Virus record (IMG/VR): IMGVR_UViG_3300048691_000182
Coordinates: 1-64,000 of that record
Direction: 5' to 3' (one strand)
Origin: a virus
DNA: 64,000 nt
Shown: piece by piece, positions 1 to 62,793 of the stretch
Numbering within the stretch: position 1 is the first letter of the stretch
Layout: the number at the start of each line of letters is the position of its first letter
Notes under the pieces: model-generated
Seen by the model: only the letters and a program-made list of their open reading frames with translations
What the model was told of the DNA's origin: nothing
The model's database searches: none
Translations under genes and position numbers: made by a program

Positions 1-1230
1 ATAGCGTACCAACCAGCTATTACTAATTATGTTTCTATAGATTCTTTTAAGAAAACATGTAAATCTTTATTTGATAGTGCTCAAAATCAATTAGGGTTTA
101 TCGCTACTGCTCAACATCATTTTAGAAGAGCTTTGTTGGAAAACATGGTAGCGAGAACGTATTGTGATATTCGTTGCACTGTTGCTTTGTTTGAAGAAAA
201 TATAGAAACTTGGAAAATTAAAAATAGTATTCCAACAACTGTTTTTTCCAAAACAGAATACTTAGATATTTATAAACAGCTTTTTGAAAATACTACCGGG
301 TCTAGTCTCAATAGTAGTAAAGATTTACAAGATCTTCAAAACGCAATGGTTGGTTTATTTTCCCAGCTATCTAGTTACAGTGTACAATTCATAACCGAAG
401 TTAATAGCTCCAATATCAAGGTATTCAACTGGGGCGCCATTAGGTTAGGTGATGTAGATGCAGAAGCTGCTGGTGGATATTTATTACCAGACTTAATAGT
501 TAACTTAGAAAATGCTGATGCTAAATCTAGCTTTGAAACTGACACTGGATTAAAATCGCCAGTAATTGAATTAGGTGAGAAAAACCCCATTACCCAAGAA
601 GGTAAATACCATATTGCTGTTACAGCTCATCCTGCTGAGCAATCTATTATTTATACAAACACTATTTCAATAGGATCGTTAAATGGATTTACTTTTTACC
701 AAGACGAAAGCAAGAATCTAAGCGACGCTACAAGTTTTATTGGGTACGATGAAATATGGCGTAAGAAAGATTTACAGATTGGAGACATCCGTGATATTTA
801 TTGTGATTGCTTCCAACTACCAACGATAAAAGGTATTGACCTTAATACCGTTATTCTTGACGGTACTTTAGGTATCTTCAAATATTTAAAGATAAACGAT
901 CCAGTGTTGAAATCTTTTGTTTACGTTGATATGGCTGGAACTACTAATGCGTTTGTTAATATTACAGATGTTAAGGAAATTGAAGCGTTCAAATCTAACG
1001 CTGGTAACGGGGCTATTAATGCTTTTAAGCCTAATGCTGAAATTACTGACCTGGAAGTATTTAATTATAACGATATACCAAACAACGTTTATGTGTCAGA
1101 TGAACAAGTTTACTTCTTAAGTGAAGGATCGTATTTAGCTTATAATTTCGATATTGAAAATTACTACGAGTCTGACACAGGCATAGTTTTCTTGTCTGAC
1201 GACGATGAAACTTTTACTCCAGATTTATAA
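1..1230 (+). CDS. Unrecognised protein, 5' end cut by window edge (probable virion protein)
   Basis: The reading frame is open from the first base of the window, so the gene begins upstream; the first internal ATG at 133 is not needed as a start. At least 409 residues are present. There is no signal peptide, membrane segment or motif that I recognise. The composition (many Asn, Thr, Asp; alternating hydrophobic beta-type stretches; acidic C-terminus ending in a run of Asp/Glu) resembles phage structural proteins. It is followed 17 bases after its stop by a fiber-like gene on the same strand, which supports a virion role by context only. Confidence 0.6.
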   Translation: MAYQPAITNYVSIDSFKKTCKSLFDSAQNQLGFIATAQHHFRRALLENMVARTYCDIRCTVALFEENIETWKIKNSIPTTVFSKTEYLDIYKQLFENTTGSSLNSSKDLQDLQNAMVGLFSQLSSYSVQFITEVNSSNIKVFNWGAIRLGDVDAEAAGGYLLPDLIVNLENADAKSSFETDTGLKSPVIELGEKNPITQEGKYHIAVTAHPAEQSIIYTNTISIGSLNGFTFYQDESKNLSDATSFIGYDEIWRKKDLQIGDIRDIYCDCFQLPTIKGIDLNTVILDGTLGIFKYLKINDPVLKSFVYVDMAGTTNAFVNITDVKEIEAFKSNAGNGAINAFKPNAEITDLEVFNYNDIPNNVYVSDEQVYFLSEGSYLAYNFDIENYYESDTGIVFLSDDDETFTPDL

Positions 1231-1247: not shown

Positions 1248-1895
1248 ATGTCTACTAAGATGCTTTCGGAAATACCTTTAGTTAATTCCTTAGCCCCTGT
1301 TAAAACACTTGTTGGAACTAATAGTAACGATAAAGATATTAACGTACCTTATAGTTTAATTAAAAGTTATATTGATACTGCTGTGGCAGCTGCTGGTGGA
1401 GGGTCTACTAATAGCAAGTTGCTGATTACTTTAACTTCAGCTATTCCTTTAAACCTAGGTAGTTATTATTACACTCCTAACGGGTTCTGGGATGTTGTGG
1501 AGGCTTTAGCCTCCTCGGATGCATCCTACGATACTATTAATTCCCAAATTTTAGTGAACACGCCAGGAATATATAAAGTTTCGCTTAGTGCTAAAATGTC
1601 AGCTTCTGGAATAGACGGATCTCCAGTTGGATGGCAAACTTCCAAAGAATTTAATCTCGGTACTTCTTTACCAGGACTACCCACCATACCACCTGGTATG
1701 GAGTCATCCCGGATAACAGCTAAAAGTGTTGTTAGTGATAGTGCTAAAAATTATTTTCAATGGTCAGATGAATATTTTATACAGGTAGCTAGCGCAGGTG
1801 ATGGTTTTATGCCTAGAATTTATTGGAATTCTTACGATAACCCAAATATGCATAGTAGTTTTTTAATGCTTGTGTGTGTTGAAAGAGTTAACTAA
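1248..1895 (+). CDS. Fiber-like/decoration structural protein, copy 1
   Basis: A 215-residue protein preceded by an AAGGAA ribosome-binding site. Its N-terminus (MSTKMLSEIPLV, then TNSNDKDINVPYSLI) matches the N-terminus of the product at 2588-3190 (MATKLSEITPTT, then SNTDKDRLIPFSSL). Both have a beta-rich C-terminal domain ending in a hydrophobic strand, like the trimeric jelly-roll heads of phage fibers or head-decoration proteins. A short Ala/Gly-rich stretch near residues 44-52 may be a hinge. A glycosyltransferase gene starts 5 bases after its stop. I infer a surface-exposed virion protein, possibly a short fiber; the exact role is not identifiable from sequence. Confidence 0.6.
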   Translation: MSTKMLSEIPLVNSLAPVKTLVGTNSNDKDINVPYSLIKSYIDTAVAAAGGGSTNSKLLITLTSAIPLNLGSYYYTPNGFWDVVEALASSDASYDTINSQILVNTPGIYKVSLSAKMSASGIDGSPVGWQTSKEFNLGTSLPGLPTIPPGMESSRITAKSVVSDSAKNYFQWSDEYFIQVASAGDGFMPRIYWNSYDNPNMHSSFLMLVCVERVN

Positions 1896-1900
1896 GTTAT

Positions 1901-2578
1901 ATGGAATTAGCTGTAATAACTTTTACAAATAACAAAAGAGGCCGGTGGCTGGAAGAAACAAAACAAAGTGTTTATAAATTTCTTCCAGCCACCGCTGAGC
2001 ACTTAATTTTAAACTGCGAGAAACCAGAACACTTAGAGCCAATGAGATTGGAATGTGTTGGTATCGCCAAGTACATTACCTTTGTAGATGACGACGATAC
2101 AATAATTAAAGACAGTTTAAATACTTGTTTAGATTTATTAAATAAAACAAATTTTGGTGTTGCTTTTACTGATGAACAAAAAATAGACAGCGATTCAAAA
2201 ATTATTTTTCCTGATGAGAAAATAAGAACTGGTTTAACAACAAGATGCGTTGCTATGCATCCAAACATTGTTCACCATTTAGCAATGATAAGATCTGATG
2301 CTGTCCCTAAAGAGATTATTTCAGAGGCTTTAAAACTAGGCAGAGGGGCTGAATGGTTAATTAAGGCATCAGCAGGCCTAACAAATAAAGCTATTCATGT
2401 TAAGGATTTTGGTTATCAATGGCGGCAGCATGGGGATAATTTTCATAAAACAAAAGAATGGACAGAAAACTATAAAACAAAAATGAATGATTTAGTTTTA
2501 TGCTTATCTAAATATTCCAATTTTATTAATAGAATATTACCATTTTACAAAGATGGTAATATTCAAGGTTTGTATTAA
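1901..2578 (+). CDS. GT-A type glycosyltransferase (family 2-like), paralog 1
   Basis: A 225-residue protein starting with a beta strand (MELAVITFTNNKRGRW) and carrying YITFVDDDD at residues 58-66, the expected place of the metal-binding DXD motif in a GT-A nucleotide-sugar transferase. A later WLIKA segment and an aromatic-rich YQWRQHGDNF segment are conserved in two further paralogs in the window (3262-3921 and 3911-4573). It has no membrane segment, so it should act in the cytoplasm. It lies directly between two fiber-like genes, suggesting that it glycosylates virion proteins or a surface glycan precursor; donor and acceptor are unknown. The last 50 bases of the gene contain a 12-bp inverted repeat. 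Confidence 0.7.
   Translation: MELAVITFTNNKRGRWLEETKQSVYKFLPATAEHLILNCEKPEHLEPMRLECVGIAKYITFVDDDDTIIKDSLNTCLDLLNKTNFGVAFTDEQKIDSDSKIIFPDEKIRTGLTTRCVAMHPNIVHHLAMIRSDAVPKEIISEALKLGRGAEWLIKASAGLTNKAIHVKDFGYQWRQHGDNFHKTKEWTENYKTKMNDLVLCLSKYSNFINRILPFYKDGNIQGLY
2532..2564 (+). terminator. Hairpin embedded in the 3' end of a glycosyltransferase gene
   Basis: A perfect 12-bp inverted repeat (GAATATTACCAT at 2532-2543, complement at 2553-2564) with a 9-base loop lies inside the coding sequence just before its stop at 2578. No U-run follows. It could attenuate transcription or protect the mRNA 3' end. Confidence 0.4.
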
Positions 2579-2587
2579 GGAAACGAA

Positions 2588-3190
2588 ATGGCAACAAAAC
2601 TTTCAGAAATTACACCGACTACTGATCTCAGCACCATTAAGAATGTTGTCTGTATTTCTAACACAGACAAAGACAGATTAATACCCTTTTCTAGTTTAGT
2701 AAGACCAAATCCAGCAGTCTTTGTTTTAAACGGCGATTCTTTAGAATCAATATCTTTTCAAGATTATAGAAATTGGACTGGTTTAGAAGTCGTTACATCT
2801 GAGATTGCTAATTGGGCAGCTTACGGTACTCGCATTACATTGCAACAAGTAGGTATATACCAGGTACATGTAAGAACGGTTATTGAGTGCTTTGATGATT
2901 ATGGTCTTCAGGCGGGTTGGCCAAATGACGGTGTAACACCGACAAGCACTAGAATAGGTCTTTTCGGTGCCATAACCGTTGGTGATTTACCTAGCTTTAG
3001 TAATCAGTTTCACGCAATCAACAACAACCCCACTAGTTATTTTCTTAATTTAGATAATACATTTATAATAGCTGCTGATTCAATTGGCGATTACTTTACG
3101 CCTGAAGTTAGTTGGTTTTATGGTACTAGTGGTTATAAATTTAAACCAGGAATGGTCATAACTGTTACGAAATTAAAAGACACTATTTAA
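2588..3190 (+). CDS. Fiber-like/decoration structural protein, copy 2
   Basis: A 200-residue protein preceded by AAGGAA. It is a diverged paralog of the product at 1248-1895: the same N-terminal pattern (KLSEI, then TDKDRLIPFSSL), then a beta-rich region ending in a hydrophobic strand (MVITVTKL). The middle part differs strongly between the copies, as in phage proteins whose N-terminus docks to the virion and whose C-terminus is exposed and fast evolving. No enzymatic motif is visible. It is followed by a perfect hairpin and then two more glycosyltransferase genes. The structural role is inferred from shape and context. Confidence 0.6.
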   Translation: MATKLSEITPTTDLSTIKNVVCISNTDKDRLIPFSSLVRPNPAVFVLNGDSLESISFQDYRNWTGLEVVTSEIANWAAYGTRITLQQVGIYQVHVRTVIECFDDYGLQAGWPNDGVTPTSTRIGLFGAITVGDLPSFSNQFHAINNNPTSYFLNLDNTFIIAADSIGDYFTPEVSWFYGTSGYKFKPGMVITVTKLKDTI

Positions 3191-3194
3191 CATT

Positions 3195-3234
3195 TGTCAG
3201 AAAGCTTAGAACTTAAACTCTAAGCTTTCTGACA
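3195..3234 (+). terminator. Intergenic hairpin between fiber-like and glycosyltransferase genes
   Basis: Arms 3195-3210 and 3219-3234 are perfectly complementary over 16 bp with an 8-base loop. It begins 5 bases after the stop of the upstream gene, so it is placed as a rho-independent-type terminator, although no long T-run follows. Confidence 0.6.
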
Positions 3235-3261
3235 GTGCTATTACTTAAGAGGTATTAGTTT

Positions 3262-3921
3262 GTGAATCATGAGTTAACAGTAATTACGCTAACCAACGGT
3301 AAACGGTCCGAATGGTTAGAAAAATGTTGTGATAGCATTAATAGTTTTTTACCTAAAACAGCTAAGCACTTAATAGTTCAATGTAAAAACTATGAAGAAA
3401 CAGACACACAAAGATTAATAAGTTTAAATCATTCGAAATACATTACTTTTGTAGATGATGATGACTGGATAATAAACGATAGTTTAAATATTTGTTTAGA
3501 TTTGATTAAAAGTAAACAACTTGGTTTGGTTTTTACTGATGAAATTATAATAAACAAAAATGGCTTAGAACAACCACCACACGGCGGACGCGGTAAGTTA
3601 TTTTATTCAGATTTAATAAATAAAATAAGTACAGCCCACCAGTTAGCTATTTATAAAACTGATCCAGTGCTAGAGGAACTAAGATTAAACCCTTTAAATT
3701 GTAGTTCTAGAATAGAGTATTGGATGAAAGCTGTAGCTGGGTTACGTGAAGGTGCGCTACATGTGCCTATAAATGGTTATTGCTGGAGACATCATTCTGA
3801 TAATCGCAGCGCCAATATTGAGGAAATAAATCTATACAAAAATAAGTTCAGCATAATGAGAGACCATTTAACTAAAGCTTATGGTGATAATAAAGAGGTT
3901 ATTCCTAGACATGAATTCTGA
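3262..3921 (+). CDS. GT-A type glycosyltransferase (family 2-like), paralog 2
   Basis: A 219-residue product with a GTG start, chosen because AAGAGG lies about 9 bases upstream and the resulting N-terminus (MNHELTVITLTNGKRSEW) aligns with both paralogs. YITFVDDDDW near residues 58-67 is the candidate DXD metal/nucleotide-sugar site. HQLAIYKTD, YWMKAVAGL and GYCWRHHSDN match the corresponding blocks in the other two copies. The 3' end overlaps the next glycosyltransferase by 11 bases, so the two are probably translationally coupled. It should be a soluble cytoplasmic enzyme; substrate unknown, with the nearby fiber-like proteins as candidate acceptors. Confidence 0.7.
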   Translation: MNHELTVITLTNGKRSEWLEKCCDSINSFLPKTAKHLIVQCKNYEETDTQRLISLNHSKYITFVDDDDWIINDSLNICLDLIKSKQLGLVFTDEIIINKNGLEQPPHGGRGKLFYSDLINKISTAHQLAIYKTDPVLEELRLNPLNCSSRIEYWMKAVAGLREGALHVPINGYCWRHHSDNRSANIEEINLYKNKFSIMRDHLTKAYGDNKEVIPRHEF

Positions 3922-4573
3922 ACTAAAAGTATTTACATTTACTAATGGTAAAAGAAAAGAATGGTTAAATGAATGCATGCGGTCTGTTATTAAGTATCTT
4001 CCTTTAGCTGCCCTGCATGAGATAGTGTTTTGTTCCTCTTATCAACAAACAGACATAGAGAGAAATAATTGTCTTAGTAAATCTAGGTATATTGCTTTTG
4101 TAGATGACGACGATTATCTTTTAAATGACAGTTTAAATATTTGTTTAAAAACTATAAAACAAACTGGTGTTGGAGTAGTATTCACAGATGAGTTTTTAGT
4201 TACTGAAAAAGGGTTACCCCATCCTAGTAACCGAGAAATAAGATCAAATATTAAATACAGTGATTTATATTCCCAGCCTCTTGCTCTGCACCACTTAGCA
4301 ATAATAGACACTTTGGCTATTCCTGGTTTAATAAAGAATTCCATTGACCCTTTTATTGCAGGTAGCGACTGGTTAATAAAAGCAGGTGCGGCTCTAAATA
4401 AAGGTGCTATTCATATCCCTATTTATGGCTATGCATGGAGACAACATACAAACGGTAGATCTGTAATTAAATCAGAAGTTAAAATTTATAACGATAGATT
4501 TTCAGAATTAAAACAGATGCTTAAGCCTTATACTAATTTTAAAGATAAAGAAATACCCAGTATAAAGTTATAA
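3911..4573 (+). CDS. GT-A type glycosyltransferase (family 2-like), paralog 3
   Basis: An upstream in-frame start exists at 3881, but ATG 3911 gives an N-terminus (MNSELKVFTFTNGKRKEW) that aligns with the other two copies, so I use it; this gives 220 residues. YIAFVDDDDY is the candidate DXD site. HHLAIIDT, WLIKAGAAL and GYAWRQHTNGRS match paralog blocks. The start overlaps the stop region of the preceding glycosyltransferase by 11 bases. No membrane segment is visible. Three copies in 2.7 kb point to local duplication and divergence, perhaps with different acceptor or donor specificity. Confidence 0.7.
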   Translation: MNSELKVFTFTNGKRKEWLNECMRSVIKYLPLAALHEIVFCSSYQQTDIERNNCLSKSRYIAFVDDDDYLLNDSLNICLKTIKQTGVGVVFTDEFLVTEKGLPHPSNREIRSNIKYSDLYSQPLALHHLAIIDTLAIPGLIKNSIDPFIAGSDWLIKAGAALNKGAIHIPIYGYAWRQHTNGRSVIKSEVKIYNDRFSELKQMLKPYTNFKDKEIPSIKL

Positions 4574-4632: not shown

Positions 4633-5475
4633 ATGGAAAATTTTACACGCACAGTTTACGGTAGTAATTTGCAGTCATCGCAGCTGTTGGGTATCCCTGT
4701 AGTCATTGCACCTAACACCACACTCAATCAGAAGTTTAATATTCAGGCAGCGACAGCCATTGCACCCACTGACGTACCCACTATGCGGTATGTAGCTGTT
4801 GGTAATGGTGGCCATAAACTGACTGTTGGTACAAGCGGTATTCCTTTGCCTGAACCCCTGCAACACAGCCCCACTGACGCCGCTTTGTTTAATCAGTTGC
4901 CTTTTGTGCTGCGTGAATTAACTAACGACATTCCAGCTAATGAGAGAGTTAAGTACGCCTTGCGTAGACAAGAGTCACATGGTGGAACTACATACATTGC
5001 TTACTACTTACGTAGATTGGATTATAGTGATGTAACTGCTTCTATGAAGTATAAGAGCACTACTAACGGGGTTACCACCACGACTGATTTTACACCAACC
5101 ACATCAAATTTAAACCCTACTCCTGTCGCTACTAGTTCCACAGGTGCTAATATTACAACTGGCGATTACGTTACTTCTAGCGGTAAGATTCCTTTCGAGT
5201 TAACTGAGGCCGACGTTACTGAACTAATGGAAGTGGCTAACATTATCTATGGCAGTAGCGCTTACGCTATTATTAGTGAAGTTGCATTAGTGTCAGCTGT
5301 TGACAAGGTAGTTACTGTGGCGTCTGCCAATAGCGGGTCTTTCAGTTTTACCGAGGCCATTGGTGCACAGGTTGTCTCATTTATGGAAGGTTTGTATGTA
5401 ATGAACTTTAATAATAAAGGTCTTGCTCTTACTCTTGAGGTGGGTGCTACTGAACCAATGTACATTCTGGCCTAA
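4633..5475 (+). CDS. Probable virion structural protein
   Basis: A 280-residue protein with an N-terminus rich in Thr, Asn and Pro, a central Thr/Ser-rich stretch around residues 140-180, and hydrophobic beta segments at the C-terminus. Codon use is cleaner and GC-richer than in the neighbouring glycosyltransferases, as for the abundant tail tube and sheath genes in this window, which hints at high expression. No catalytic motif is seen. A sequence AAGGATTAAATAAAA precedes the ATG. I infer a virion component such as a head or tail accessory protein; no specific role can be given. Confidence 0.55.
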   Translation: MENFTRTVYGSNLQSSQLLGIPVVIAPNTTLNQKFNIQAATAIAPTDVPTMRYVAVGNGGHKLTVGTSGIPLPEPLQHSPTDAALFNQLPFVLRELTNDIPANERVKYALRRQESHGGTTYIAYYLRRLDYSDVTASMKYKSTTNGVTTTTDFTPTTSNLNPTPVATSSTGANITTGDYVTSSGKIPFELTEADVTELMEVANIIYGSSAYAIISEVALVSAVDKVVTVASANSGSFSFTEAIGAQVVSFMEGLYVMNFNNKGLALTLEVGATEPMYILA

Positions 5476-5477
5476 GC

Positions 5478-6047
5478 GTGCTTCATATTCCCGAAGGATC
5501 GAGTTCAACTAGTTGCATAGTTGGAATTGATCCTGGATCAGAAACTATGGGGGTGGCTATAATTCATTTTGATATAACCACTCTCAAAATAGTAAAATCT
5601 CATGTAAGTACTTTCACAGGTAGTAAACTTTATGCAATGCAGAACTGGAATGAACAAACCCAGTCTGCTAGATATGCAAGAATAAATGCACATAAAGAAA
5701 ATTTACTTAGGTTATTTCAAGTAAATAACCCTGTACAAATAGTAGCTGAGGATGGTTTCTTTAACCAAAGAAGACCAAATGCTTTTGCTGTTCTGATGGA
5801 AGTACAAATAGCTATTAGACAAGCTGTGTACGAATATAGCCACTGGAGAGAGTTATTTCTCATAGATCCACCCACTGTGAAAAAAGCAGTAGGTGTAGCT
5901 GGTAATGCTGATAAATTTAAAGTAAAAGATGGAGTTTGTGCTTTGTCTGATTTAAACTACGAAGGGTTAATTCCTTTGAATGATTTAGATGAACACTCCA
6001 TCGATGCTTTAGCGGTTGCGTATGCAAAGTTAAAGTCAATAACTTAA
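5478..6047 (+). CDS. RuvC-like Holliday-junction resolvase
   Basis: A 189-residue product with a GTG start two bases after the upstream stop, probably by translational coupling because no separate ribosome-binding site is visible. GIDPGSETMG at residues 16-25 is the first RuvC motif (Asp18). VAED near 89-92 supplies the second acid (Glu91), PPTVKKAV near 131-138 the conserved Lys motif, and DEHSIDALAVA at 171-181 the final acidic cluster. This is the RNase H-fold metal site of RuvC-family endonucleases, which cleave four-way DNA junctions. In a phage it would resolve recombination or replication branches before packaging. A strong hairpin follows the stop. Confidence 0.8.
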   Translation: MLHIPEGSSSTSCIVGIDPGSETMGVAIIHFDITTLKIVKSHVSTFTGSKLYAMQNWNEQTQSARYARINAHKENLLRLFQVNNPVQIVAEDGFFNQRRPNAFAVLMEVQIAIRQAVYEYSHWRELFLIDPPTVKKAVGVAGNADKFKVKDGVCALSDLNYEGLIPLNDLDEHSIDALAVAYAKLKSIT

Positions 6048-6050
6048 CAC

Positions 6051-6080
6051 TGTTACGATAGAGCTTGCTCTATCGTAACA
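6051..6080 (+). terminator. Hairpin terminator after the RuvC-like gene
   Basis: A 30-base near-perfect palindrome: arms of 14 bases at 6051-6064 and 6067-6080. It starts 4 bases after the upstream stop and ends 14 bases before the start of the inner spanin gene. Confidence 0.6.
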
Positions 6081-7998: not shown

Positions 7999-8048
7999 CA
8001 TACCCCCTACCCTGGAAGCTTTTAGTGGCTTCCAGGGTAGGGGGTATG
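7999..8048. terminator. Bidirectional hairpin terminator, 21-bp perfect stem
   Basis: Arms 7999-8019 and 8028-8048 are fully complementary with an 8-base loop. The hairpin sits between convergent genes ending at 7993 (+) and 8054 (-), so it can serve both. The left arm begins with CATA and the right arm ends with TATG. Confidence 0.7.
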
Positions 8049-28251: not shown

Positions 28252-28997
28252 TAAATTCATCGGATACTAAACAAGGTGTTTATATTGATCTTGATGCTTT
28301 ACTTGATACTAGACTAGGCACCATTATTGATAATTTTGGGCAGGATAAAGCTATTAGTATTTTATCTAACGGATACTTTACTAGGAAATCAAATACATTT
28401 GAAGGCATAACTTTAACTGAATTTGAAAACCTATACGCACTGCGGACAAAGAAAGTTTTATTAAATTCCATGGTTACTAAAGTAATGAGATTACTTGTTG
28501 ATCTTGTTGCAACCATGAACAAACAAGCCATTACCTCCCCTCTGCATAGCGGCCCTAAAGTTTATATTAATATTTATCCATATAAACTAAATGAGTTAGA
28601 AGTAAACACAATACTTAAATGTGTTGTTTTAAGTTGTAACAAAGCTTGCGATGTGGTGATGATTAATACAGCGCCCGAAAACTTAACTCCCCAGTATTGT
28701 AAAAATACTTTTGCTGTTATGTTTAAGTACGACTATGGTGAGTGGTTTGAGAAACAAGCAGCTAATTTTGATAAAGCTAGATGCCCTGGTTTGACCTGTT
28801 TTGTTCCTGCCATGTATTTTGTCAGAGAACCTACCAAAGAAGAGTTAGAGAAGTTTGTCAAAGAAGACATGCATCCTTTATCAGCTATTGAAATGGCATC
28901 TTCTGTTTTTATTGACTTGAAGCTTTATGAAACAGAATATTTCTGTGCCAATATAGCTAATGACATCATGACTTTAAAGTCTTATAAAAATGCATAA
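28248..28997 (+). CDS. Unrecognised protein coupled to the beta C-terminal gene
   Basis: A 249-residue product whose ATG overlaps the previous stop (ATGA). Soluble, mixed alpha/beta, with several Cys residues around positions 123-135 and 180-190. There is no recognisable catalytic motif. As last gene of the recombinase operon it may act in transcription or recombination. A 20-bp hairpin terminates the unit. Confidence 0.5.
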   Translation: MINSSDTKQGVYIDLDALLDTRLGTIIDNFGQDKAISILSNGYFTRKSNTFEGITLTEFENLYALRTKKVLLNSMVTKVMRLLVDLVATMNKQAITSPLHSGPKVYINIYPYKLNELEVNTILKCVVLSCNKACDVVMINTAPENLTPQYCKNTFAVMFKYDYGEWFEKQAANFDKARCPGLTCFVPAMYFVREPTKEELEKFVKEDMHPLSAIEMASSVFIDLKLYETEYFCANIANDIMTLKSYKNA

Positions 28998-29042
28998 TTA
29001 CTACAGTCAAGGAAGCTTAGTTGCTTCCTTGACTGTAGTAAT
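28997..29042. terminator. Bidirectional hairpin terminator, 20-bp stem
   Basis: Arms 28997-29016 and 29023-29042 are perfectly complementary with a 6-base loop, overlapping the stop of the plus-strand gene and just ahead of the minus-strand stop at 29054. CATA and ATATG flank it. Confidence 0.7.
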
Positions 29043-35482: not shown

Positions 35483-38400
35483 CTAAGTACGTGCCATTGA
35501 CACTGGGACAGTTTTATTGGGTGTTCTTTGTGGTTGAGCACCCTGCACATTACTCGTATTCATATCATTATTACTAGGTGTGTTTTTCTCATCTACCTTC
35601 ATTGCTTTAGGTTGACCAGAATTTTCTAATAATTTCTGTAACACAGACAACATACTAGTCTGTACATCAAGAGATTTCTTCAAAGTAGTAGAAACATCAC
35701 CAATAGCATTTGTCATATCCGCATTAGGATTAGACTGAACTTGTTTAGTGGTGGGTACATTAAATCCACCTACATCTGCTCTAGGGGTCAGAGCAGCACT
35801 AATATTTCGATCAGGCTGGCTAGAGCTAGGCGTATTAGTAGAACTACTTTGACTAGGCATCCCAGCTATAGTACTAGCTGTTGAATTAGGAGCTTTTAGT
35901 CCCAAACCAGAACTACCGGGAACACCCGGTTTAACACCTTCTAAACTAGAGCCTGGCTTCAACCCTATACCACCTACGGGATGGTATTCAACTGGGACAC
36001 CGTGTTCTTTTACTTTATTCTTGACTCTACCGTCTAATAAAGAATAAACTTCAGAAATAGTCCTAGGTGTATTACCATTATAAAAAATACCAGGATTGCT
36101 CTTTGCTGCGTCTGGTAATACGTTAGCAGCAACAGTGTTTGGATCAGCACTAAAGAATTTCTTGGCACCTGCTGCACCTAAGAAATGAGCCATGTATAAA
36201 TCAGTAGCATTTAAGTCTGATTTACTACCGGACAAGGACTTCATATTTTCTTTAATGTACTCAGCAGTCATTAAAGCATTAGCCCTTGAATCCATGGGTG
36301 AAGTACCAGGTGTGATGCCGTACTTACTGCCATTTTTCCTAATCATGTCTTCCCAAGTTTTGTCAACAAATTGACCCAAACCTGAAGCTGTGCTAGACCC
36401 AGCTCTTGCATTAGGATTAAACCCGGATTCGATAGCTATAACAGGGGCTAAGATTTTAGGATCTACTCCAGTCATCTTTGAAGCACCAAGAATAACGTCT
36501 TTCTGACTCTCCCAGCCTTTTGCAGAACTACCCTCTCCAAGAAGAGAATACTTTCCGCCCGTCCCAGGAGTAGAAGATTTTAAAGCTTCCATCTTGTCGC
36601 CAGGGGCTGGTGCTCTAGACGAAGTAGACATCATTCCCTTACCTGATTCACTATCAGCACTGGATGTAATTCCTGCTAATCCAGAAGGTCCATCAGATTT
36701 AACTTGTGGTTTATCAGGGATAGTTTTCTTAGTAATATCAATCATTGTTCCGGCGTTACCCGCTTTTGCACTTTTATCAATAGCTGTTAATACTTTTGAA
36801 TTATCAGTGATTGCCGGTGACTCTGCTTTAGCAACAGCGCTTGGTGTTACATTCATGTCCAGTAGTTTCTTGGCTAATACTGGGTCTCTTGTAGCTAGTT
36901 TACTACCAGCAACAGTACCTAGACCGCCACCACCTTTGCCTAAAGAAGCCTGAATAGCTTTTGTGGCTGCTTGAGGATTTTGTTTAAATCCTTGAATATC
37001 AGTTTGAATACCAGCAGGCTCCATATGCCACTTTTCACCCCCAACAGGTCTGGTAAAACCATACTTACGCATTAGGCCTAGCTTTTCCATTTCATCAAGA
37101 GTAGCTGAATTTATATCCACAGCTAAACCAGACTCATGCATACTAGTACCAGGTTTAGCCGCCTTACTTGAGTCAGCGGCATACAGTTGTTGTTGCTGAG
37201 CAAAAGTTCTAAAACCATCGTTGATATAAACAGTCTTACCTGTCAGTTTACCAAACTCTTCAATCATACCGTTTAAGTTAGCTTTAAAGGCAGGATTTAA
37301 GTTATCAATATTAACACCTGGTTTTAATTTTGTAAACTGAGAAGCATTTCTACCATCAGAAATAGCACCTCCAGCTAAAACTAATCCATTAGGTGCCGCG
37401 CCACTAGTAGTATCAAAACCACCACTTCCTTTAGCACCTAGAGAACTAGACTCTGAATCAGGACCTCCTTGGGGTTTTCCTGATTCATAAGCGGAAGGAT
37501 TATTGCCTCTTGCTCTTGGAGATGTATCGGTTGAAGGTTTAACCTTACCTGCATCACTAGTCTGAGGGGTTAGTTTTTTCTTTATGGCTTCAGCTGCTAA
37601 TTCATTCTTAGCATCTTCTTGTAATGATTCTAATATATCTTTTAAAATACTAGAATTACTTCCTAAGCTATAACCATCCCAAGGTGAACTAGTAACACCC
37701 CATATTCCAGGTAAAGAAACTAGCTGATTTACAATGGTTAATTCTTGACTAGGTTTTAGTTGAGGTAGTTTACCTTTGACTAATTCGGACCCAGACATTT
37801 GTTTTACTAAACCTAGATAAGTTAAGTAAACAGGTAAGAATCTTTTCTGAAACCAATTAATCCAATCTTCACCCTTATCAGTGTTTCTAGAAACCCCAAA
37901 AACACCACCTATGGAGTCTATAATTATATTTGCATCAGCCTTGAGACTTGCTTTTCCATCAGCTCCATAAATACTGTTATCAGTAATTAGATCTTCTAAT
38001 TGGCGAAGACAGTTTACTTTCATGGTCTCCATTTTGTGTAAACCATATGCTCTAAATCTAGCGCCCTCTAAAGCCTCGATGGTGCCTGCTTTTCTATATC
38101 TTGGTGCAGAGCCCTTGGCTGATATATTGCGGGCCTCTGAGGCTGCTGTAGCTGCATCTCCTAAGCCATCAGCTTTGGTATTCTTAGCAGTAGAGTTAGT
38201 ATTTTTCTGATTTAGTTTATTTACTACATCTTCACCTAATTGTGCAGCGGTTGCCACACCTAAACGGGTAGAATCTTTCTTTTGTTTTAGATCTCTATCT
38301 GCGGCAGCTTTAGCTACTTTGAAAGCAGCTTCAACATCAGCACCGTTAGTTACTTTAACATCCGAAGTAATGTCAGGCCTATACTCAGAATCGTAAGGAC

Positions 38401-41400
38401 CTTCAGGAAAATGAACTAATTCTAAATATTTAACTTTAATGGCTGGTTTAAAATCATCAACCTCAGCTAAAGGTGTTTTATTATCTAAAGCAGCAATAGC
38501 GGTATAGTGCGTTAAGTAAACAGGTTTGAAACGATTAGTAAACCACGCTGTCCAGTTATTAAGAGCAGAGCTATCGTCCTTAGAAACATTGAACAAAGAC
38601 AAAGCTTTTTCCATGTCAAAGTTTTTATCGGATAATGAAGCTCTACCAGCTTTCACCATGGTTATTTTCTTTAGCATGTCTTCTAATTCAAGTATTTTTT
38701 GTATACCTGAATTATCATCTTGCCTATAACCGTACTGCACCATTCTGAAAGCAACTAAAGGACTAACTTTAGCTTTCAGGTATTTGTACGCTTTGTAACC
38801 ACCATAACTTAGTGCAGCCGCTGCGACTAAACCTAAGGTAATAGGTGATGTCAGAATAGCGCCTATAGTTGTTAAAGTACCAGCTAGTCCTGCCACTATT
38901 GTCGCACCTAAAGTACTGCCTGTTGCTGCTGTAGCCGCAGCCGTGGCACCTGTAGCAGCCGCTGCGCCACCACCAGTTGCACCTGCGGCTATTGTACCAG
39001 CGCTAGCTGTTGCTGCGCCAGTAGCTAAGGCACCCGCACCCATACCAAATAAGCGCATACCAGCAAGGCTAGTACCGACAGACTTTAAAGCAGAAGCACC
39101 TTTACGCAACCAACCCTTACCACCTTTTTTCTTAGATCCATCACCAATATCGAAGAGATCAGTAAGTGTATCCATAAGACCTGATAAAAGACCACCTTCT
39201 TTTTCGCTTTTCTTTACAGCTTCATCTGCTTTCTTAGCACCTTCTGCGACACTTTTACCTTTGGTACCAAAACCTTTTTGTTGCTTTCTCCACGAACCTT
39301 CACGCACACCGTCACCATCTGTATCGTTGAAAGCTTGTTTCTTCTTACCAGGTAATCTGTCGTTGAGAACCGTATAAATTTGAGTAAGTACGTTTACAGA
39401 AGCCTGACCATAGCCACCTATGTCAATCCCATTAACACCTCTGGTTATTAAATTAGCAGCTCCCTTTACTACATTTTTAACAACAGTACCAATACCTCTT
39501 GTAAACTTTAATCCAGAAATAATGGTGTTTTTAACCATTGCTAATATTTTCTGAATAGGTAGTCTAATTGGATCTCCTTTAGAATCTACTAAACCCATTT
39601 TTATTTGCTCGGTAGTTAAGACAACCTCACCGGTGCTATTTTTAATGACGCCATCAATATCAGAAGGCCTCATAACTGGTCCATTGTCAGAAGCTCTGAA
39701 ATAACCACCATTTCTCATAATGAGAGCCGTCATTACTGGGTTTTCAATACCTTTGACATAAATGTCAACTGGTTCATTGAGAATGTTTTTAGCTTTATTA
39801 ATTATAAATTTAGCTGTATCAAAACCCAATTTTAAAATAGGTGGAATAACTAAATTACCAAGATTAGATATTCTTCTAACATTTTTACCTAAGAAATTAC
39901 TTACGCCGGTAACGGTTTTAGATAAGAGGTTTCTAGAAACTAAATTCTTTAACTCGCTTGCTTCTAAAATAACATTGCCTGCTTTATCTCTTACTTCACC
40001 GGTAATATCCGAAATCTTTTCAATTACTTTTTTACTGTTAACGTCAATGTAAGCGCCTGCTTTCAGTAACTCAGCCCTTAAAGCGACCCCGTCCCTACCA
40101 GTAACGTAAAGATCACTTATCTCATTGTAAGCTTCTTTAGTTTTATTCCAAAGAAAACTTCTTGCTGGTTGTGTAAAGTCTTTTGCAATATTAAAAGCGC
40201 CTTTGGCAGTGTCTTTAACAATACCAGCAGTTTCAAAAGGTTTCTTTGCAACCCAAACGGTGGCGTTCTTAGTCTTTCTAAGGAAATTCACTATGTTGAT
40301 ATTTCCGCGAGAGAAAATATCCTTAGCATCGGTTTTTAAATCAGCATAGCTATTATTTCCAGAACCACCAGGCATTCCACGCGCCAGCATCTCAATCAAC
40401 GATCCAAAATAAATAGATTGATCTTGACTGTTAAGGCTGGTAGTAGATTCAATTTTCTCTAATAATTTTCTCATTAGAGTAGCTTCGCTAATGAGCGTGG
40501 TGTTTTCTTCTTTGGTAAGAATAGCCTCACCTTCGTGAATCTTTGCAAACATGTCATGCGGTACTTTGTCCACGCCCACTGCAAACGAAGGAACTCTTAC
40601 GTTTTTACCATTTTTACCTCGTGGTTTCTTTTTCTGTCCCGGCTTATCGTCCTTGCTTCTGAATACAAGATCATCCGCAGAATCCATACCACCAACACCA
40701 CCTGCGTAATTAAGTAGTTTCTCAATGTTAATGTTTCCATTTTCATTGACTAGGTCATTATTAGAGAGAAAATCATTCATTCCTAAATTGATCATCTCTT
40801 GTATTTTTGATGCAGGGTTTTCTAAATATTGTCCAACACTTTTTTGCTTATCTGTAAAAGCATTATGCTTAGAAAGTGTTTCGTTATCTAAGCCAAAACC
40901 TACCTTGGTGTGTTCTTGAACTTTGAAGAACTTAAGCATAACGTTATGTATTTCGTCAGCGTATTTCTCAGTTATTTTATCATTCGTAAAAGTATCTTTA
41001 TTAGTAACGCTACCAATACCTGAATTAGTGTTGTCTAGGTTCTGAGAAAGAAGCTTCTTACCTAATGCTACTCTTGCGTCAGGTGACATTTTACCACCAG
41101 GATCAACCATCTCTAGCAATTCATCTAACTGACGCCCAGTGGCGTTCTTGCCGCTAGACATATAGTTTTTACTTGCTTGCTTTATTTGTTCCTTGGTAAG
41201 TTTTTTATCTGGATCAATTTTCTTTAAGTGTTTCTTAAGGTCTTCATCTGTTGGATTACCTTCAACAAGATTATTCAGAAGATTCTTCTCAGCAATTTTA
41301 GCATCTAAAAACTTATTTTTAGTAACGTCGTATGTGGTGAGATTGATATTCTCGTCACCTGTGCGCATTACTTGGAGTTCTCTAAATATTCTTGATAGAT

Positions 41401-42739
41401 AACCAGGAATTACCTCGTTAATAGATTTATGTGTCTGCTTAGTAAAGATGTGTGGTTTATTTAAATCACCTAACTTGTCTTCTTTAACGCCAGTATCGGG
41501 ACTGAGATCAGGAACTAACTCTTGCAGAAGACTAATAAGCTTTGATCCTATATTGTCTTTATATAAGAGTTGCTTATTGTTTTTGAATTCGGTTAACTTA
41601 GCAGGTGCATTTCCAACAAAATCTTTAAGTAGTTCATTACCTTTAGCAATTGTTTTATGTTTACCTAGAAAATCTTTTTGTCCCTTAGCTAACTTCTCAG
41701 CTAACCAGGTAATAAAAGCACTGGAAGCCGTGTTGCCTGCTAAACCTAACTTATCATCAACTTGTTCTAAAGTTTCTTTAGCTTCGCCAGCTTGCTCCAG
41801 AGCACCTGTGGCCTCATTTATTTTATCTTTAAATAAACTTACCTTATCTTTGGCTAGTTTAGTAATGTGGTCACCAAATTTCTTACTGATGTTGCTATCA
41901 AATAACTTATTGGCCATTCTAGTACGCAACATCATATCTAGTCGTTCACTATTTGTCTGTTTGACAAAATCTGGTAGACCTGTATTCTTTTGAATAGCGT
42001 CTAAACTAGTTCTGAGAAAAGCATTTTGCTCTTTAGTTTCACTAAGTAAATCCATCATCACAAACTGCGTGCGCATTTGTGTTTCTAAAGATTTACGTTG
42101 AAAGTTAATAGTTATTTTATCCTGATACTGAGCAAGTCTATTAGTAGCGTTACCAATTCTATTAAGCATTCCAAACACATCTCTGTGTCTACCAATTTCA
42201 ATGCCTTCTTGTAGTCTTTCTCTTACTTCCTTACGAGCATCTTGCTTAGCATTATGCGTCATTTGGAATTTAAAAGTATCAGCTAAACTAATACCAAGAC
42301 CCTCTGTTCTCTGGTCTTCCTTACTAGCGGCTGACTGAGTTAATGCTTTTTGCTGATCAGCCCATTTATTAATAGAACTAAGAGTATTCTTTAAATAAGG
42401 AGCGCTAGTAGGTACTAATTTATCAGCCGCTTTGCTCATTTCAGCAATACTGGGCTTAATTTCCCTGGCAGCGTTATTGTATAGCTGCTTAGCTGTAGTA
42501 CCTACTTCATCTGCAAAATCCATCGCTTGGCCGTACCCTTCAGGTAGGGCTATGCGCAATAACTTCTTTATAAAAGAGGCATCTTTGATAGTAGATGTGG
42601 CACCTTCATAGACGCCATGCGCTAGTTTTGTAACTGGGGTTCTGTCGTCTTTGCCTTCGAGAGAATCGAAGTCGAAATCTGGTACATCAAAATCATCCTC
42701 CACAGGACGAGACGTATTTAGTTTGTCTGTCTTTGCCAT
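35483..42739 (-). CDS. Giant tail protein (tape-measure type) with M15 peptidase and lytic transglycosylase domains
   Basis: A 2418-residue product. Residues 1-1220 are long charged helices; about 1226-1320 is a Gly/Ala-rich stretch with several hydrophobic helices (possible membrane insertion). Near residues 1815-1910, SMHESGLAVDIN and EKWHME are the zinc-site motifs of a D-Ala-D-Ala carboxypeptidase-type M15 peptidase. Near 2075-2210, AIESGFNPNARAGSS, SGLGQF and a following TAEYI helix mark an SLT-type lytic transglycosylase with catalytic Glu. So one chain carries both peptide- and glycan-cutting domains for local cell-wall entry. It lies next to the polymerase beta-prime gene, like phiKZ gp181 next to gp180. 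Confidence 0.8.
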   Translation of the reverse strand: MAKTDKLNTSRPVEDDFDVPDFDFDSLEGKDDRTPVTKLAHGVYEGATSTIKDASFIKKLLRIALPEGYGQAMDFADEVGTTAKQLYNNAAREIKPSIAEMSKAADKLVPTSAPYLKNTLSSINKWADQQKALTQSAASKEDQRTEGLGISLADTFKFQMTHNAKQDARKEVRERLQEGIEIGRHRDVFGMLNRIGNATNRLAQYQDKITINFQRKSLETQMRTQFVMMDLLSETKEQNAFLRTSLDAIQKNTGLPDFVKQTNSERLDMMLRTRMANKLFDSNISKKFGDHITKLAKDKVSLFKDKINEATGALEQAGEAKETLEQVDDKLGLAGNTASSAFITWLAEKLAKGQKDFLGKHKTIAKGNELLKDFVGNAPAKLTEFKNNKQLLYKDNIGSKLISLLQELVPDLSPDTGVKEDKLGDLNKPHIFTKQTHKSINEVIPGYLSRIFRELQVMRTGDENINLTTYDVTKNKFLDAKIAEKNLLNNLVEGNPTDEDLKKHLKKIDPDKKLTKEQIKQASKNYMSSGKNATGRQLDELLEMVDPGGKMSPDARVALGKKLLSQNLDNTNSGIGSVTNKDTFTNDKITEKYADEIHNVMLKFFKVQEHTKVGFGLDNETLSKHNAFTDKQKSVGQYLENPASKIQEMINLGMNDFLSNNDLVNENGNINIEKLLNYAGGVGGMDSADDLVFRSKDDKPGQKKKPRGKNGKNVRVPSFAVGVDKVPHDMFAKIHEGEAILTKEENTTLISEATLMRKLLEKIESTTSLNSQDQSIYFGSLIEMLARGMPGGSGNNSYADLKTDAKDIFSRGNINIVNFLRKTKNATVWVAKKPFETAGIVKDTAKGAFNIAKDFTQPARSFLWNKTKEAYNEISDLYVTGRDGVALRAELLKAGAYIDVNSKKVIEKISDITGEVRDKAGNVILEASELKNLVSRNLLSKTVTGVSNFLGKNVRRISNLGNLVIPPILKLGFDTAKFIINKAKNILNEPVDIYVKGIENPVMTALIMRNGGYFRASDNGPVMRPSDIDGVIKNSTGEVVLTTEQIKMGLVDSKGDPIRLPIQKILAMVKNTIISGLKFTRGIGTVVKNVVKGAANLITRGVNGIDIGGYGQASVNVLTQIYTVLNDRLPGKKKQAFNDTDGDGVREGSWRKQQKGFGTKGKSVAEGAKKADEAVKKSEKEGGLLSGLMDTLTDLFDIGDGSKKKGGKGWLRKGASALKSVGTSLAGMRLFGMGAGALATGAATASAGTIAAGATGGGAAAATGATAAATAATGSTLGATIVAGLAGTLTTIGAILTSPITLGLVAAAALSYGGYKAYKYLKAKVSPLVAFRMVQYGYRQDDNSGIQKILELEDMLKKITMVKAGRASLSDKNFDMEKALSLFNVSKDDSSALNNWTAWFTNRFKPVYLTHYTAIAALDNKTPLAEVDDFKPAIKVKYLELVHFPEGPYDSEYRPDITSDVKVTNGADVEAAFKVAKAAADRDLKQKKDSTRLGVATAAQLGEDVVNKLNQKNTNSTAKNTKADGLGDAATAASEARNISAKGSAPRYRKAGTIEALEGARFRAYGLHKMETMKVNCLRQLEDLITDNSIYGADGKASLKADANIIIDSIGGVFGVSRNTDKGEDWINWFQKRFLPVYLTYLGLVKQMSGSELVKGKLPQLKPSQELTIVNQLVSLPGIWGVTSSPWDGYSLGSNSSILKDILESLQEDAKNELAAEAIKKKLTPQTSDAGKVKPSTDTSPRARGNNPSAYESGKPQGGPDSESSSLGAKGSGGFDTTSGAAPNGLVLAGGAISDGRNASQFTKLKPGVNIDNLNPAFKANLNGMIEEFGKLTGKTVYINDGFRTFAQQQQLYAADSSKAAKPGTSMHESGLAVDINSATLDEMEKLGLMRKYGFTRPVGGEKWHMEPAGIQTDIQGFKQNPQAATKAIQASLGKGGGGLGTVAGSKLATRDPVLAKKLLDMNVTPSAVAKAESPAITDNSKVLTAIDKSAKAGNAGTMIDITKKTIPDKPQVKSDGPSGLAGITSSADSESGKGMMSTSSRAPAPGDKMEALKSSTPGTGGKYSLLGEGSSAKGWESQKDVILGASKMTGVDPKILAPVIAIESGFNPNARAGSSTASGLGQFVDKTWEDMIRKNGSKYGITPGTSPMDSRANALMTAEYIKENMKSLSGSKSDLNATDLYMAHFLGAAGAKKFFSADPNTVAANVLPDAAKSNPGIFYNGNTPRTISEVYSLLDGRVKNKVKEHGVPVEYHPVGGIGLKPGSSLEGVKPGVPGSSGLGLKAPNSTASTIAGMPSQSSSTNTPSSSQPDRNISAALTPRADVGGFNVPTTKQVQSNPNADMTNAIGDVSTTLKKSLDVQTSMLSVLQKLLENSGQPKAMKVDEKNTPSNNDMNTSNVQGAQPQRTPNKTVPVSMART

Positions 42740-51881: not shown

Positions 51882-51925
51882 TACTCACAGTACAGGAACT
51901 TATTATAGTTCCTGTACTGTGAGTA
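51882..51925 (+). terminator. Hairpin terminator after the protease gene, 19-bp stem
   Basis: Arms 51882-51900 and 51907-51925 are perfectly complementary with a 6-base loop; TATG(T) follows immediately. It lies 7 bases after the protease stop and before the leader of the next unit. Confidence 0.7.
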
Positions 51926-62754: not shown

Positions 62755-62793
62755 CTACTACTACACAAGCTATAAATGCTTGTGTAGTAGTAG
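62755..62793. terminator. Bidirectional hairpin terminator, 16-bp stem
   Basis: Arms 62755-62770 and 62778-62793 are perfectly complementary with a 7-base loop. It lies between convergent stops at 62747 (+) and 62806 (-). CATA flanks it on the left and TTATG on the right. Confidence 0.65.

Follow-up and report, generated by a model that had tools for sequence, protein, structure and literature searches.

Genes and hairpins of the locus

The window analysed here spans the first 64 kb of a virus record of 96,279 bp and carries near its left end five genes on the + strand in the order fibA-gt1-fibB-gt2-gt3, in which two genes for fibre-like proteins alternate with three for predicted glycosyltransferases (GTs; fibre-GT-fibre-GT-GT). 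All five open reading frames of a preliminary description of this DNA were recovered on that strand at the coordinates it gave, and the alternation it had read is borne out by their order. The locus, with its hairpins and the genes on either side, comprises the following features.

1..1230, + strand: left flank; conserved virion-region protein of phiKZ-like type (phrog_3222), of which the C-terminal 409 aa remain after truncation at the contig start
1248..1895, + strand: fibA; fibre-like protein, 215 aa, with a short conserved N-terminal segment and a beta-rich C-terminal part
1901..2578, + strand: gt1; predicted GT2-type glycosyltransferase, 225 aa, with DDDD at residues 63-66
1943..1994, + strand: hairpin after fibA; perfect 16-bp stem, 48 nt past the fibA stop and within gt1, resembling the 3'-end hairpins of this phage
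2532..2564, + strand: hairpin at the gt1 3' end; 15-nt arms, 93% complementary
2588..3190, + strand: fibB; fibre-like protein, 200 aa
3195..3234, + strand: hairpin after fibB; perfect 16-bp stem, 5 nt past the fibB stop, z -5.05
3262..3921, + strand: gt2; predicted GT2-type glycosyltransferase, 219 aa, with a GTG start
3911..4573, + strand: gt3; predicted GT2-type glycosyltransferase, 220 aa, with an 11-nt overlap with the end of gt2
4633..5475, + strand: right flank; DUF7208 protein of the phiKZ gp139 type, a conserved virion structural protein of phiKZ-like phages
5478..6047, + strand: RuvC-like protein in the phiKZ gp140 position; neighbour of the DUF7208 gene in a conserved arrangement

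For gt3, translation could also start at an upstream ATG (3881), which would yield a protein of 230 aa, whereas homology to the other family members starts at 3911. The left-flank protein is 30% identical to gp79 of phage FLC9 (E 7e-23), and is also related to SURPRISE13_101 and to an Eowyn protein.

The three GTs are paralogs, as had been claimed, with identities of 41.5% between gt1 and gt2 (E 8e-43), 37.5% between gt1 and gt3 (8e-48) and 43.7% between gt2 and gt3 (2e-57), all at E < 1e-40 and with an invariant DDDD motif. The claimed paralogy of fibA and fibB is real but weak, amounting to 25.6% identity over 195 alignment columns (BLAST E 3e-8); their Smith-Waterman score of 116 was reached by 0/2000 shuffles, the maximum among which was 63. 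The diverged middle parts that the preliminary description had pointed out are visible in both families. Identity between the two fibre-like proteins drops from 16/36 in the first 38 columns to 18/74 and then 4/35, before a C-terminus with 15/50, and in the GTs the stretch that follows the FTDE motif is 20-27% identical, as compared with about 40-58% elsewhere.

Across the 96-kb record we detected 33 strong perfect-stem hairpins (stem of 12 bp or more), as compared with fewer than one in shuffled sequences, and 28/33 of them occurred at gene 3' ends, as compared with 17% of random positions. Most of these hairpins lack a long T-run. Apparently they serve this phage as its signal for transcript 3' ends. 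Examples lie at window positions 6051-6080, 7999-8048, 28997-29042, 51882-51925 and 62755-62793. Within the locus, the hairpins after fibA and fibB would fit high expression of the fibres along with lower expression of the enzymes.

Predicted enzymes and fibre-like proteins

When the AlphaFold model of gt1 (pLDDT 90.3, pTM 0.88) was compared with solved structures over residues 1-211, the top matches were all GT-A enzymes: the K4 chondroitin synthase K4CP (Z = 18.3 over 197 residues), TarP (15.6), GalT1 (5hea; 15.4), which we take to be a protein glycosyltransferase, and SpsA (14.2). TarS was also among the closest solved folds, and one GT of mycobacteriophage Che8 was found among the weaker matches to gt1. 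The DDDD motif, a metal-binding motif of the DxD type, is invariant in 5/5 sequences of the family, and a single aligned column, located before the last helix, holds an acidic residue in each of the five (E, D, E, D and E), which, from general knowledge of GT2 enzymes, is presumably the catalytic base. The motifs G-x-[DE]-[WY] (R-x-E-Y in gt2) and G-Y-x-W-x-x-H are conserved in the family with small exceptions, G-Y-x-W being present in 5/5. The predicted structure and the conserved catalytic positions support that gt1, gt2 and gt3 are GT-A/GT2 enzymes, and the conservation suggests that they are probably catalytically active.

The proteins thus resemble GT2 enzymes such as K4 chondroitin synthase, TarP/TarS, SpsA and GalT1 in their GT-A fold, DxD-type motif and acidic base position, but they are minimal single-domain proteins of about 220 aa, which share ~10-16% identity with these enzymes and are devoid of extra domains. 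No membrane helix was predicted in the GTs. Matches to the Pfam GT2 family PF00535 scored 14.6-22.4 bits, as against a curated cut-off of 23.3, and were confined to the DDDD region, and weak NCBIfam matches were to the teichuronic-acid GT TuaG. The best PHROG for all GTs was phrog_19440 (E 7e-4 to 3e-14), a family that carries no function; it is the structural model that supports the GT2 label.

Three features led us to call fibA and fibB fibre-like, namely a short N-terminal segment, a prediction rich in beta structure and the position within a virion locus in two unrelated phages. Judging by the position of their genes among those for virion structural proteins, both are probably virion components. 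The AlphaFold model of fibA reached a pLDDT of 45, and a fold search with it was dropped since this confidence was too low. A weak PHROG match assigned fibA to phrog_746 (minor tail; E 3e-4); Pfam families and solved structures yielded no match to the fibre-like proteins, a result that does not count as evidence for a new fold. The motif pattern would allow one to guess at a C1q/TNF-like head on fibA and fibB.

A variable slot and a recurring gene pair

By its gene content, the source of the window is a fragment of a phiKZ-like jumbo phage, an assignment based on the DUF7208 and RuvC-like genes and on RNA polymerase, tail sheath and head genes (beta-type RNA polymerase subunits, a tail sheath and a head protease were detected in the record by PHROG). 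Relatives of the DUF7208 gene at 4633-5475 occur in 273 annotated phages, mainly phiKZ-like, the best being that of Burkholderia phage FLC9 (53%), followed by phiKZ-type phages at about 39-40%. Elsewhere in the window, positions 35483-42739 (- strand) encode a 2418-aa tail protein (phrog_3201), whose C-terminal part also matches endolysin and transglycosylase families.

The same two genes that flank the block here also flank the corresponding slot in FLC9, SURPRISE13 and Eowyn; they are directly adjacent in the first two and separated by two virion proteins in Eowyn. We surveyed 83 related loci, in 64 of which the left flank was recognisable. The slot was empty (gap below about 130 bp) in 44/64 of these and held other genes in the remaining 20/64, typically tandem DUF7941 proteins and once a GIY-YIG-like gene. 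No relative of the GTs or of the fibre-like proteins was found in the 83 loci (no GT match at E 1; best fibre match E 0.57), so that the slot of the relatives, which is empty or filled with DUF7941 virion proteins or other small genes, differs from the one described here in holding fibre-GT units in 0/83 cases. Because relatives have this slot empty or otherwise filled, we regard positions 1248-4573 as an accessory segment that was inserted into a variable slot between virion genes. Across phiKZ-like phages (L046, L085, L103, L005 and others), the slot before the DUF7208 gene acts as an accessory site; in that set it contains tandem diverged DUF7941 genes in several phages and a GIY-YIG-like gene in L099, and is mostly empty.

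The fibre-GT pair does recur outside this group. Apart from the GTs of this phage, a profile scan of viral contigs retrieved two close family members, on contigs L010 and L011; scans of viral contigs and annotated phages with single GT or fibre sequences gave no match, and the profile was needed. On L010, a 177-kb contig that is not phiKZ-like, a single relative of the fibre (28% to fibA) and a single relative of the GTs (41% to gt1) are adjacent, the stop codon of the former overlapping the start of the latter as TAATG. The chance that sole relatives of both would adjoin is roughly 1 in 150 at about one gene per kb. The L010 fibre relative is located after baseplate genes of the gp25-like and J-like types and after further fibre-like genes. 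On L011, a 139-kb contig, the GT (40% to gt1) starts inside the 3' end of a collagen-like fibre gene, and in the phage studied here the gap between fibA and gt1 is 5 nt. The GT is positioned downstream of the fibre in all three phages, and the other neighbours differ. A comparison across phages for gain and loss of the modules, which had been suggested earlier, thus found them absent from the 83 related loci and the fibre-GT pair present in L010 and L011. The C-terminus of the L011 fibre was not accepted as a homologue of fibA and fibB, for an hhalign E of 0.008 was accompanied by a shuffle p of about 0.01 to 0.2.

Since the pair recurs while its other neighbours differ, a functional link between fibre and GT is the simplest reading, and gene order in the three phages supports it. 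It is highly improbable that independently mobile fibre and GT genes came to lie side by side by chance: three phages are all that are known, and the slot readily takes up unrelated genes in relatives, but the same order and tight coupling are seen in three phages with different neighbourhoods, and in the 177 kb of L010 the sole GT relative directly follows the sole fibre relative. We found no publication that describes a pairing of fibre and GT genes in jumbo phages.

The comparison with L010 also bears on the age of the block, which the preliminary description had ascribed to local duplication. Paralogy holds, but recent local copying does not, as the paralogs of this phage, both fibres and GTs, are about equally distant from one another and from their L010 homologues. 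It follows that the module either is old or was built from separate acquisitions, rather than being a fresh duplication; the GT tree does not settle which is closer to L010, gt1 or the gt2/gt3 pair.

Other GT2 loci were not counted as recurrences. Loci L012-L019, L023-L028 and L031-L034 hold distant GT2 families, without an adjoining fibre relative in those inspected. Among three human-gut 'phage' fragments that matched the L011 GT (L035-L037), two carried large bacterial-type GT2 genes and no fibres, and in the third the match fell on no convincing gene. A scan of prokaryote genomes returned distant GT2s only, and no match was obtained when 398 genomes from a single phylum were searched with a profile, which, as there was no positive control, is uninformative. 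Several smaller phage contigs (L014, L016, L019, L026 and L033) carry a different GT gene pair just 3' of a likely major capsid gene, encoding proteins of about 560-750 aa and about 190-240 aa with the motif YIAFVDDDD, which is possibly a capsid-glycosylation cassette. At L023:6998-10562, a GT gene is located just after likely capsid genes and has a GDP-mannose-dehydratase-like gene and other sugar-type genes downstream of it, and some phages would seem to bring their own sugar-nucleotide pathway.

Candidate acceptors of the glycosyltransferases

As the fibre-then-GT pairing recurs in unrelated phages, the GTs probably decorate the fibres of the phage itself, and on balance we lean towards the reading that they glycosylate the neighbouring fibres using host sugar nucleotides. 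The block would then be an accessory cassette among virion-protein genes, consisting of two fibre-GT units and one extra GT, in which each enzyme, predicted to be soluble and of the GT2 type, probably moves a sugar from a host NDP-sugar onto the fibre encoded just upstream. Glycosylation of the fibres inside the infected cell would yield progeny that bear sugar-modified fibres, gt3 may lengthen the glycan or act on either fibre, and the benefit may lie in shielding or in tuned adsorption. A host origin of the sugar nucleotides would be required because no PF00483 nucleotidyltransferase was found in the three records, which may be incomplete. The variability of the GTs after FTDE, beyond the donor-binding core, would be expected if their acceptors differ. 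Two recurrences are few, and the relatedness of the L011 fibre to fibA and fibB is not demonstrable, both of which count against fibre glycosylation, as do the low-confidence fibA model, the lack of a clear family match for the fibre-like proteins and the Pfam GT2 scores below the cut-off. Of the virion sugar-modification system that had been proposed for this locus, the functional link of fibre and GT is supported by the recurrence of the pair in L010 and L011; the fibre is the presumed virion acceptor, and evasion or altered adsorption the putative benefit.

The main rival, somewhat unlikely in our estimate, is that the GTs alter a host surface polysaccharide during infection (LPS core, O-antigen or another envelope glycan) and so change the receptor of the adjacent fibre, which would keep progeny from re-adsorbing and prevent superinfection; a shared glycan would then be what links fibre and GT. 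The closest solved folds do include polysaccharide and teichoic-acid GTs (K4CP, TarP, TarS), but GalT1, which presumably glycosylates proteins, is just as close in fold. The weak TuaG matches agree with an action on host glycans, as does the proposal of host-polysaccharide modification for the GT clusters of jumbo cyanophages (PMC7824862). The tight one-to-one coupling of a GT downstream of each structural gene speaks against it, as do the three records, in which the only GT2s detected with PF00535 are these GTs and no sugar-nucleotide gene was detected with PF00483. In addition, the GTs have no membrane helix, unlike Gtr-type serotype converters, and a lasting change of the surface would be a smaller gain for a lytic phage.

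Glycosylation of virion proteins by phage enzymes has a precedent in mycobacteriophages, where phage-encoded GTs accompany an O-glycosylated capsid or tail (Freeman et al. 2023, as outlined in PMC12619734 and PMC11652166). The mycobacteriophage GTs are believed to act on structural proteins of the phage itself, as we propose here, but the acceptors there are capsid and tail-tube subunits, whereas the putative GTs of the present jumbo phage are paired with small fibre-like genes. This documented glycosylation of capsid and tail tube, along with the placement of the slot within a virion gene region, would also suit another virion protein as acceptor (e.g., baseplate or capsid), the fibres being mere neighbours in a shared virion-surface cassette; we think this unlikely, for L010 and L011 have only a fibre in common at the locus and their remaining neighbours differ. 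Still less credible is glycosylation of hypermodified phage DNA, a role in which phage-encoded GTs exist (cited in PMC12619734), since no DNA-modification gene adjoins the GTs, which in each of the three phages come after structural genes.

Under fibre glycosylation, fibre and GT could form a portable unit of cognate partners, every fibre being accompanied by a GT dedicated to it, and an exchange would swap fibre and glycan together; we put this forward tentatively. If true, it would represent a modular sugar-coded system of adhesion or shielding common to jumbo and other tailed phages. Glycosylation of phage virions is already known, the mycobacteriophages being the case that we traced in the literature; the compact fibre-GT pair in unrelated phages places an enzyme and its candidate acceptor side by side, which makes their relation directly testable. 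Action of the GTs on the fibres would also give phrog_19440 a role, and would help explain why GT genes are frequent in large phages.
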